Shown: in pieces, positions 20,898-23,190 of the stretch | How the letters are laid out: the number at the start of each line of letters is the position of its first letter | Position numbering within the stretch: position 1 is the first letter of the stretch | Assembly: GCF_004212215.1 (NCBI RefSeq) | Contig: NZ_QVFV01000011.1 | Coordinates: forward strand, 1 to 41,526 | Source: Leptolyngbya iicbica LK | GTDB lineage: Bacteria; Cyanobacteriota; Cyanobacteriia; Phormidesmidales; Phormidesmidaceae | Direction of reading: 5' to 3' | DNA length: 41,526 nt | Translations under genes and position numbers: made by a program | Notes under the pieces: model-generated | The model's database searches: none | What the model saw: only the letters and a program-made list of their open reading frames with translations | Told to the model about the DNA's origin: nothing

Positions 20898-20916
20898 TGT
20901 ATTACGGGTGTAGTAT
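20898..20916. promoter_or_regulatory. Candidate operator: TGTAxTAx direct repeat, 11-base period
   Basis: TGTATTAC (20898-20905) and TGTAGTAT (20909-20916) repeat at an 11-base period, one helical turn, about 70 bases upstream of the ribbon-helix-helix-like gene. Such spacing suits RHH dimers binding side by side. Inference only. Confidence 0.3.
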
Positions 20917-21139
20917 TCCAGCAATAAAGTAACAGATTTCCGGCCTAATAATGCGAGCCCCGGTTACTTTGCTGCCCTTGGTTACCCAAGTTAACCCGAT
21001 GATCCGAGCATTCCAGTCAACCAGAAATTAGAGAGTTTGCGAAATTTCATTGACCGACTATTAATAATGACAACTTTTCAGGGCAAACAAGCCCTGAATC
21101 GCTTACTGCACCATGCTTTAACCGACTTAGATAGGAAGC
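20917..21139. other. Divergent gap with a perfect 8-bp hairpin
   Basis: No gene is seen between the RHH-like gene and the STAS promoter. TTCAGGGC (21077-21084) pairs with GCCCTGAA (21091-21098) around AAACAA. There is no T run on either side. It could be an operator for the STAS operon. Confidence 0.4.
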
Positions 21140-21168
21140 TTGCGGTTCCAAATGTCCTGTCATATACT
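21140..21168 (+). promoter_or_regulatory. Promoter for the STAS gene cluster
   Basis: TTGCGG at 21140-21145 and TATACT at 21163-21168 are separated by 17 bases, close to the sigma-70 consensus. The predicted transcript would begin near 21175, about 30 bases before the apparent STAS start. Confidence 0.65.
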
Positions 21169-21207
21169 TAGAGCTCAAATTCTGAGTGACGTACTGGGAG
21201 GTTTCCC

Positions 21208-21567
21208 ATCGCTGAACAGCTGACCCTGACCGTAAGTTTAAGAGGCACCAGAGAGGTTAGGGCTAATTGTCAAATTTTCCGCCTCACTGGACTCTTGGAC
21301 GCTTTCTCAGAACCGACGTTTCGGAAGGTGATGGGAAACTATGTGACCCAAGGTCCTAGCAACCTAATTCTGGACCTTTCTGGAATTGATTTTGTCGATA
21401 GTTCGGGCCTCGGAGCATTGGTGCAATTGGTAAAGAAGGCCAAAGACTCACAAGGGAGCTTGCAGTTAATTGCGAATCCTCGGGTTATGCAAACGGTTAA
21501 GCTAGTGCGTTTAGAAAAGTTTTTAGCAATTCAACCGTCGGTGGATGAAGCGATCGCGAATCTTTAG
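21208..21567 (+). CDS. STAS-domain anti-sigma factor antagonist
   Basis: A roughly 119-residue single STAS domain, as in SpoIIAA/RsbV-type proteins that bind and release anti-sigma switch kinases. The phosphorylatable serine lies in DFVDSSGLGALV. The first STAS strand (VRANCQIFRLTGLLDAF) is encoded upstream of the first ordinary start, a TTG at 21295, so that start would delete part of the fold. Upstream to the stop at 21187 there is no ATG, GTG or TTG in frame. GGGAGG sits six bases before an ATC at 21208; CTG codons at 21220 and 21226 are alternatives. I therefore place the start at ATC 21208. A good promoter precedes it, and Mini-III follows 50 bases on. Confidence 0.75.
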   Translation: MAEQLTLTVSLRGTREVRANCQIFRLTGLLDAFSEPTFRKVMGNYVTQGPSNLILDLSGIDFVDSSGLGALVQLVKKAKDSQGSLQLIANPRVMQTVKLVRLEKFLAIQPSVDEAIANL

Positions 21568-21617
21568 TTAGCGTTAGATCTGTGGGTGGCACTTTGGGCA
21601 GAGCTCAAGGAAACTTT

Positions 21618-22106
21618 ATGGCTCAAGATTCCCAAGATGTTCCGACCCCTAGGTTGCCGATGCCGCTGGAAGGCTTGCTGTGTCCGACTCAGGGTCTAGC
21701 TCAGTACTCAGAACAGCAGCTGCGATCGCTATCGCCCTTGGCGTTAGCCTATATAGGTGATGCAGTTTTTGAGTTATTCGTGCGGAGTCGGCTGCTCTGG
21801 CCCCCGCAGCAGGTACGCACGTTTCATCGGCAGGTCGTCAGTCATGTGCGTGCTGAGCAGCAGGCGCAATACCTAGAGTGCCTGCAACCTTACCTATCAG
21901 CGGCAGAAAAAGATATTTTGCGTCGGGCTCGCAATGCCGCATCTGGACGCAAAGTGCGAGCCAGCTTGCGCGACTATCGTCAGGCCACCGCCTTGGAAGC
22001 CTTGCTGGGCTATCTCTATCTCACTGATGCCCAACGGTTAATTGAGATCCTGTCTTATCTGCCGATTACCCCTGAAGTGATACCGGCAGAGGCAACGCAA
22101 CCTTGA
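21618..22106 (+). CDS. mrnC: Mini-ribonuclease 3 (23S rRNA maturation)
   Basis: A 162-residue RNase III-like protein with only the catalytic domain and no dsRNA-binding domain, the hallmark of Mini-[23 protein letters not shown] carries the catalytic acidic residues (Asp and Glu in GDAVFE), and EALLGYLYL the second conserved acidic site. In Bacillus the enzyme trims 23S rRNA ends. The ATG at 21618 with AAGGAAA before it is preferred over an upstream in-frame codon at 21582. The next gene is a 23S rRNA methylase, matching the mrnC-rlmB order known from Firmicutes. Confidence 0.92.
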
Positions 22107-22182
22107 ACTTTGGCCCTCAGTACAGCGCTATATCGGCGGCCAGCGTGCCCCTCTCTACTTGTTTTACTTGGATGTTGATGAT

Positions 22183-23190
22183 ATGAGCGATCGCCCAAAA
22201 CCTGTCAAAAAATCTACGGGCTCTGGCCCCTCGTCGAGTCGGCCGCAAAAGCGTAGCGGCGGCAAACGGTATAGCCAGGATCGCTTTTCGCGGAAACCTC
22301 GAGGTGATCGTCGGGCGGGCGGGGGCCGCAAAAGCGATCGCTCCCGCCCTGCAAAGCCCGTAAGGCGCGACCATTCCGAGCCCGTTGTCCAGGCCGAAGC
22401 CGAGAACGCGCAAGAATCGCCTGACATGATTTTTGGCCGCCACGCCATCCAGGCAGCCCTCGAAGGTGAGCGCACTCTCAACCGCCTGTGGATCAACGAT
22501 CGCTATCGGTTCGACGGCAGGTTTTTACCTCTGATTAATGAAGCGAAAGCCAACGGTGTCGTAATCGACGAAGTCGATCAGCGTCGCTTAAATCAGCTTG
22601 CGCAAGGCCAAAACCACCAGGGGATCATCGCCCAAGTCGCTCCTTATGACTATTGGGAACTCGATGCTCTAATCACCCATGCGAAACAAGCCACCACTCG
22701 TCCCGTATTGCTGGCTGCGGATAGCATCACTGATCCCCACAACCTGGGGGCCATTATTCGCACCGCTGAAGCCCTTGGCGCCCAGGGATTGATCATTCCC
22801 CAGCGGCGGGCAGCAGGTGTTACCTCAACAGTCGCAAAAGTGGCAACGGGAGCGATCGAGCACCTGCCCATCGCCCGAGTAGTCAATCTCCGTCAGGCGC
22901 TAGAGACGCTCAAAACTGAAAATTTCTGGATTTATGGTCTGGCCGCTGAAGCGAATCGTTCACTACACACAGTTGAATTTAGTGGTGCTACGGTACTCGT
23001 AGTAGGAGCCGAGGGGGACGGGCTTAGCTTACTGGTACAGCAAAGCTGTGACGAAGTCGTGGCTATTCCCTTAGCGGGTAAAACGGCAAGCCTCAATGCA
23101 TCGGTTGCGACCGGCATGGCCCTGTACGAGATTTATCGTCAACAGTGGACTGGGCGATTGAATCTAAATTCTTTGCAAAAAGCAAAGTAA
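22183..23190 (+). CDS. rlmB: 23S rRNA 2'-O-ribose methyltransferase, RlmB/TrmH (SPOUT) family
   Basis: A 335-residue SAM-dependent methylase. Residues 1-75 are a basic, Ser/Arg/Gly-rich, probably disordered RNA-binding tail. Then comes the substrate-binding domain ([10 protein letters not shown]...), and the SPOUT knot with motif 1 [17 protein letters not shown], motif 2 [11 protein letters not shown] and motif 3 [19 protein letters not shown]. RlmB methylates G2251 of 23S rRNA in E. coli; family members can act on other sites. The ATG at 22183 is used; a TTG eight codons earlier is possible. It follows mrnC by 76 bases. Confidence 0.92.

Follow-up and report, generated by a model that had tools for sequence, protein, structure and literature searches.

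In Leptolyngbya iicbica LK, the orthologue of Synechocystis ssr1600 is probably translated from an ATC codon (21208-21210, forward strand), a weak, infC-like start of a kind that is extremely rare in bacteria and that would keep this anti-sigma factor antagonist scarce and tie its supply to IF3 activity. The position of the start is strongly supported by the comparison of orthologous sequences, in which the homologous codon is ATT, ATC or ATA (hereafter ATH, or AUH in RNA) in 221 of 222 distinct loci. The dependence of this start on IF3 would follow by analogy with other genes that begin with such codons. The window analysed here is the whole stretch of 41,526 nt from contig NZ_QVFV01000011.1, and all coordinates refer to it.

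The STAS reading frame is open from 21190, immediately after an in-frame TGA (21187-21189) seven codons 5′ of the ATC, to a TAG at 21565-21567. A sequence-only reading of the window had stated that this frame contains no ATG, GTG or TTG between the stop at 21187 and a TTG at 21295-21297, and direct reading of the frame confirmed it. That TTG, on the forward strand, is the earliest canonical start codon that a reading-frame scan found in the STAS frame, and a start there would remove 29 residues of the protein, including the first conserved strand. Translated from the ATC, the gene (21208-21567, forward strand) encodes a STAS protein of 119 residues, and profile searches with the window protein matched PF01740 (E 2e-18) and, above its cut-off, TIGR00377 (anti-sigma factor antagonist).

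Besides its STAS domain, the protein contains the sequence DSSG, with the serine pair that is phosphorylated in Ssr1600. Counting from codon 21226-21228, a CTG leucine codon on the forward strand, residues L24, G43, S59 and S60 of Ssr1600 correspond to L, G, S and S in the window protein; by this residue matching, the CTG is the counterpart of the TTG published as the start of Synechocystis ssr1600. The same residue register holds in two further loci (L176 and L178), both of which have TTG at this place. The window gene is an orthologue of ssr1600, the antagonist in the SigC growth switch. In Synechocystis, Ssr1600 and the kinase/anti-sigma factor Slr1861 are reported to control the growth-limiting RNA polymerase-SigC holoenzyme, and Ssr1600 is phosphorylated by Slr1861 and, as cited in the same paper, by PmgA (PMC12329169). 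In the literature we consulted, binding and phosphorylation by these kinases (Slr1861 or PmgA) and the release of SigC are described for Synechocystis alone (PMC12329169).

Of 386 genomes of the phylum, 185 had an orthologue at E 1e-15, all within the class of the window. Among the genomes listed without a match, 20 in number, 19 lie outside this class and one (G156) inside it. In an earlier genus-level search, one genome (G010) gave a weak match only. Loci were taken from whole genomes, from named contigs, from 80 fetched regions of diverse families (most from the listed part of the 185 matching genomes, the rest from an earlier genus-level search) and from 30 further genomes of family f2, a family of small genomes (1.6-3.0 Mb) that are presumably picocyanobacteria. 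Loci identical over the compared stretch were left out of the counts, as were the paralogues L111-L113 and L082, which has too little upstream sequence and whose codon is ATT. Loci under 92% identity formed a set of 161 representatives; the 30 f2 loci stand outside the tree, Shine-Dalgarno, -10 and entropy counts.

No ATG, GTG or TTG was found at the homologous codon in any of the 222 loci. Among 192 distinct loci, the codon is in register and reads ATT in 120, ATC in 50 and ATA in 17 (187 together); in four more (L044, L188, L242 and L243) inserted codons shift the register and the codon is still ATT, and one has CTG. The 30 further f2 genomes have ATA in 20, ATC in six and ATT in four. L233 is one of the loci with ATT at the homologous codon. 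The sole orthologue outside ATH, L202 (genome G201), carries a CTG, itself non-canonical, downstream of AAGGAGGTCACT, and this CTG is preceded by AAGGAGG. The sequence-only reading had named an ATG in relatives as a sign of a sequence error or a mutation in the window. Both are ruled out, because five loci of the same genus (L002-L006) have ATC or ATA and the 222 orthologues carry ATH (221) or CTG (one). L005 is identical to L004 at the start region, and the loci of the window's genus match in place named contigs of Halomicronema sp. CCY15110 and Oscillatoria sp. CS-180. The same reading had placed the start at either ATC or CTG. The ATC was borne out by the orthologues, and the CTG codons at 21220 and 21226 were rejected as leucine codons that vary among relatives.

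A Shine-Dalgarno sequence, GGGAGG (21196-21201, forward strand), lies six bases (TTTCCC) before the ATC, just as the sequence-only reading had described. An exact match to the anti-Shine-Dalgarno complement of at least six bases was present in 136 of the 161 representatives, compared with 56 of 3220 base shuffles, and the spacing was 5-6 bases in 139 of 161. The match is weaker in f2, with 3-5 matched bases in its 14 representatives. As a control we used mrnC, the next gene downstream, for which a match of at least six bases was found in just 14 of 134 of the same loci. When neighbouring in-frame codons were compared for Shine-Dalgarno strength, ATH had the longest match on its own in none of the 161 representatives and shared it in 157, so that this comparison does not tell the codons apart. 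We rejected the idea that the start site is structured or unusually open, as the unpaired probability at the start equalled that of shuffles (0.45 vs 0.46).

Retention of the ATH start looks selected when codon changes are placed on a tree. With a gene tree built without the start codon (161 rows), parsimony counted about 19 changes at the third base of the start codon; the tree itself draws on 333 bases of a single gene. One of the changes gave CTG and the others were among T, C and A; ATG was never produced. Of 783 changes at fourfold sites of this gene, 211 lead to G; on that basis the chance of seeing no ATG among the start-codon changes is 1.4e-4, or about 2e-4 with the CTG change set aside. 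In the controls, a canonical codon was available to mrnC in 134 of 135 loci, L027 being the exception (the control took in 135 of the 137 loci with mrnC downstream), and, of three STAS paralogues of the same genome, the two that gave a result (L111 and L113) have ATG.

When a start codon pairs poorly with the initiator tRNA, IF3 destabilises the initiation complex. At the antagonist gene, the initiator tRNA-fMet (anticodon CAU) would read AUH despite a third-base mismatch, and IF3 would reject such complexes, so that the rate of initiation would be low and IF3-responsive. A shortage of IF3 relative to 30S subunits, or laxer initiation, would raise it, and the strong Shine-Dalgarno sequence would make the weak codon usable. 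The antagonist would consequently be scarce relative to the kinases Slr1861 and PmgA, so that SigC would stay off in growing cells, and the status of translation initiation may act as a second input beside phosphorylation. That almost every cyanobacterial locus read here retains this odd start suggests that antagonist supply is set by how strict the ribosome is in its choice of start codon. The sequence-only reading had proposed that an ATC start would make the switch sensitive to initiation fidelity, and we infer the same as the best reading of the infC, sigR and ccpN precedents together with the apparent ATC start of a second IF3 gene in the same genome.

The genes for IF3 itself bear on this proposal. 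For the canonical infC, an ATG, GTG or TTG was available in 30 of 30 genomes (that of the window and 29 relatives), L151 offering only TTG. A second, divergent IF3 gene was counted by eye in 36 of 59 genomes (that of the window and 58 relatives), and in 20 of these 36, several of them near-complete, no full-scale canonical infC was seen, again by eye. We read 20 copies of the second gene, one per genome (L252-L270 and the window genome's own, L251, at G000:C3:404400-405900). In all 20, the likely start codon is ATC or ATT; the stretch before it contains GAGG in 19 copies and AAGGAG in the remaining one. In 17 copies, no ATG, GTG or TTG lies between the stop codon and the conserved region. The second IF3 gene thus appears, from its sequence, to begin with ATC or ATT, and because of these likely starts, infC-type control probably operates in cells that have it. 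When IF3 type was compared by eye with the choice between ATC and ATT in the antagonist gene, only a clade-wise distribution was apparent.

Genes with proven AUU, AUC or AUA starts are few, a handful being named in the literature we consulted. The start of infC is reported as ATT in Escherichia coli and ATC in Streptomyces (PMC5472188), and as AUA in Staphylococcus aureus (PMC13009471). The antagonist gene resembles this autoregulated system in its AUH start and in the use of AUU, AUC and AUA by different lineages. It differs in that the antagonist is not IF3, so the control would act in trans; moreover, canonical infC has a canonical start available here, and it is the second IF3 gene alone that looks AUH-started. 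The closest regulatory parallel is Streptomyces sigR, whose GTC start is repressed by IF3 and in which a canonical start is reported to unbalance the switch (Feeney 2017, PMC5472188). Both genes encode sigma-pathway regulators whose start is not NTG and whose Shine-Dalgarno sequence is long and conserved; in both, starts have been misannotated and stoichiometry with the partner is the likely reason. Unlike the antagonist of an anti-sigma factor described here, with AUU, AUC or AUA in 221 of 222 loci from many families, sigR encodes the sigma factor itself and has GTC (GTT in two of 34 genomes) in one genus (PMC5472188). Repression by IF3 was demonstrated for sigR in that work (PMC5472188), whereas for the cyanobacterial antagonist we infer it.

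A third precedent comes from Staphylococcus, where ccpN (AUA) and cvfC1 (AUU), the latter a possible regulator, combine a conserved non-AUG start with an extended Shine-Dalgarno sequence in a regulator gene (PMC13009471). These are Firmicutes genes for unrelated proteins, and their starts were seen by ribosome profiling and reporters (PMC13009471). S. aureus AUU and AUA starts with long Shine-Dalgarno sequences are reported to give about 10% of the output of AUG in poor medium; in rich medium, one non-AUG start of three rose to 30% (PMC13009471).

It is quite possible, though clearly short of an even chance, that the AUH codon is a fixed setting, which holds synthesis at a low, constant level and fixes the ratio of antagonist to kinase while IF3 and the state of the ribosome carry no signal. 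Since this explanation departs from the preferred one in its last step only, their odds do not add up. The S. aureus data are in part consistent with it, as the AUU start of cvfC1 showed no effect of medium while the AUA start of ccpN did (PMC13009471), and the authors of the sigR study had been unable to demonstrate that oxidative stress raises translation from the GTC codon (PMC5472188). Against a fixed setting, a GTG or TTG codon or a weak Shine-Dalgarno sequence would serve as well, and here a weak codon has been kept together with a Shine-Dalgarno sequence that is strong in most representatives. It also counts against a fixed setting that 36 of 59 genomes contain a second IF3 gene, with an AUH-type start in the 20 copies read. 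We continue to favour an antagonist start that would respond to IF3.

The remaining alternatives concern the start site itself. It is very improbable that translation yields both a main form begun at ATH and a shorter one begun at a nearby TTG or GTG. A canonical codon does occur within the first 12 codons after ATH in 77 of 161 representatives, but its place differs between loci, and the western blot of Synechocystis Ssr1600 is reported as a single band, on ordinary gels that may not resolve six residues (PMC12329169).

More improbable still is a true start downstream at the leucine codon, CTG at 21226 in the window and TTG in Synechocystis, with ATH lying in the leader. TTG is published as the initiation codon of ssr1600, and protein was obtained from an overexpression construct that used this start (PMC12329169); in addition, TTG stands at the counterpart of 21226 in 21 of 161 representatives. 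The codon is, however, mostly CTG (71) or CTA (46), and TTA (13), CTT (four), CTC (four), ATC (one) and ATT (one) also occur, while the conserved Shine-Dalgarno sequence lies some 23 bases upstream of it. A further argument comes from the codons between ATH and this leucine, which we number from the leucine as codon 0, so that the ATC stands six codons before it and codon -2 is 21220. Entropies were taken from 156 of the 161 representatives, the five out-of-register or CTG loci being left out. At codon -4, GA occupies the first two bases in 100% of these loci and the third base is free (1.51 bits); at codon -2, the first two bases are C in 88% and T in 91%, again with a free third base (1.85 bits). 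At both codons the amino acid is thus preserved despite a varying third base, so translation must start before codon -4. Codons -3 and -1 show no such coding periodicity in the same loci, which counts against a start at ATH. For comparison, codons -12 and -11 have entropies of 1.91-1.99 bits.

Within the gap between the upstream stop and codon -4, ATH is the sole codon that is conserved throughout. The next codon, -5, is mostly Pro or Ala with a varying first base, and the second residue of a protein begun at ATH would be Ala, Pro, Ser, Thr or Val, of the type that permits removal of Met, in 152 of 161 representatives. Together with the in-frame stops described below, this leaves the ATH codon as our preferred start.

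An in-frame stop lies no more than eight codons 5′ of the aligned codon in 79 of the 191 loci with a visible stop, and in 51 of those 79 it is a TAG exactly four codons before ATH; L210, which has no in-frame stop in view, was left out of these counts. In f2, a stop stands two codons before the ATA in 11 of 30 loci. An upstream ATG, GTG or TTG in the open frame was found in 44 of 161 representatives (14 with ATG), which counts against the ATH start, although such codons lie at scattered places. Upstream in-frame starts, the TTG at 21295 and out-of-frame entry were all rejected on the orthologue comparison.

The leader of the gene appears to be short. The hexamer TATACT (21163-21168, forward strand) is a likely -10 element on the strength of its presence in relatives: a TATACT-like hexamer (at least five of six bases) was found upstream in 127 of 160 representatives, 98 of them with the hexamer 36-51 bases before the start, compared with 358 of 1600 shuffles. 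A general scan found neither a consensus sigma-70 promoter, which counts against this assignment, nor a terminator at the window locus, and no known RNA family matched the leader region (20900-21650) up to E 1. The TATACT would place the beginning of transcription at about 21175 and give a 5′ leader some 30 bases long. Eleven of the 161 representatives (L118, L124, L135, L140, L189-L192 and L195-L197) have TGAGCGTT directly after the TATACT-like -10, possibly as a start-site or operator element.

Least probable of all is entry from an upstream frame by frameshifting or re-initiation, with ATH an internal isoleucine codon: an out-of-frame ATG, GTG or TTG within 35 bases reads over the site in 96 of 160 representatives, but such a frame has an ATG in just 22 of 160, the nearest upstream ORF of at least 60 residues in the window is on the opposite strand, the likely -10 element leaves room for the short leader alone and many genomes have an in-frame stop two to four codons 5′ of ATH. 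Initiation at ATH, with putative control by IF3, remains the preferred reading.

Downstream of the antagonist gene, the window contains a gene for a Mini-III type ribonuclease III domain protein, mrnC (21618-22106, forward strand; PF00636, E 3e-23), with an ATG available, and then rlmB, encoding a 23S rRNA 2′-O-methyltransferase (22183-23190, forward strand; TIGR00186, E 1e-77, searched from the codon after ATG). The three genes stand in a row, which places a regulator of SigC beside genes of 23S rRNA maturation (window 21568-23190). In 137 of 161 representatives mrnC lies 3′ of the antagonist gene on the same strand, and in none on the opposite strand; the distance is at most 250 bases in 117 of the 137, the farthest being 1122 bases. 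In the remaining 24 representatives, the retrieved DNA yielded no mrnC. Only L027, among 135 loci, lacks an ATG, GTG or TTG for mrnC between the stop and the conserved domain.

The Synechocystis protein Ssr1600 (Kurkela 2025, PMC12329169) is the same protein as that encoded in the window, with a published TTG start six codons downstream of the ATH. A term search of the main text of that paper found no mention of a non-canonical start. In the open-licence literature we found no report of an AUH start for this antagonist, though one may exist elsewhere, and no IF3 test of this kind in cyanobacteria. If the ATH start is true, the N-terminus used in the published Ssr1600 work is six residues short. 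Gene finders limited to ATG, GTG and TTG must truncate, extend or miss the antagonist gene.

The AUH start of this gene, which encodes a regulator of photosynthesis and growth, seems to have been retained throughout the members of its class in which it was read. Tentatively, and with slightly less than even confidence, we extend the IF3-responsive reading to the oxygenic cyanobacteria as a whole. IF3 activity relative to free 30S subunits would serve as a read-out of ribosome supply and, through an AUH-started antagonist that feeds the SigC brake, would be a conserved input to the choice of sigma factor; in lineages that carry a second IF3 gene begun at AUC or AUU, this IF3 and the antagonist would together make up a small start-codon regulon. 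Start-codon stringency may in this way be wired into cyanobacterial sigma-factor control.
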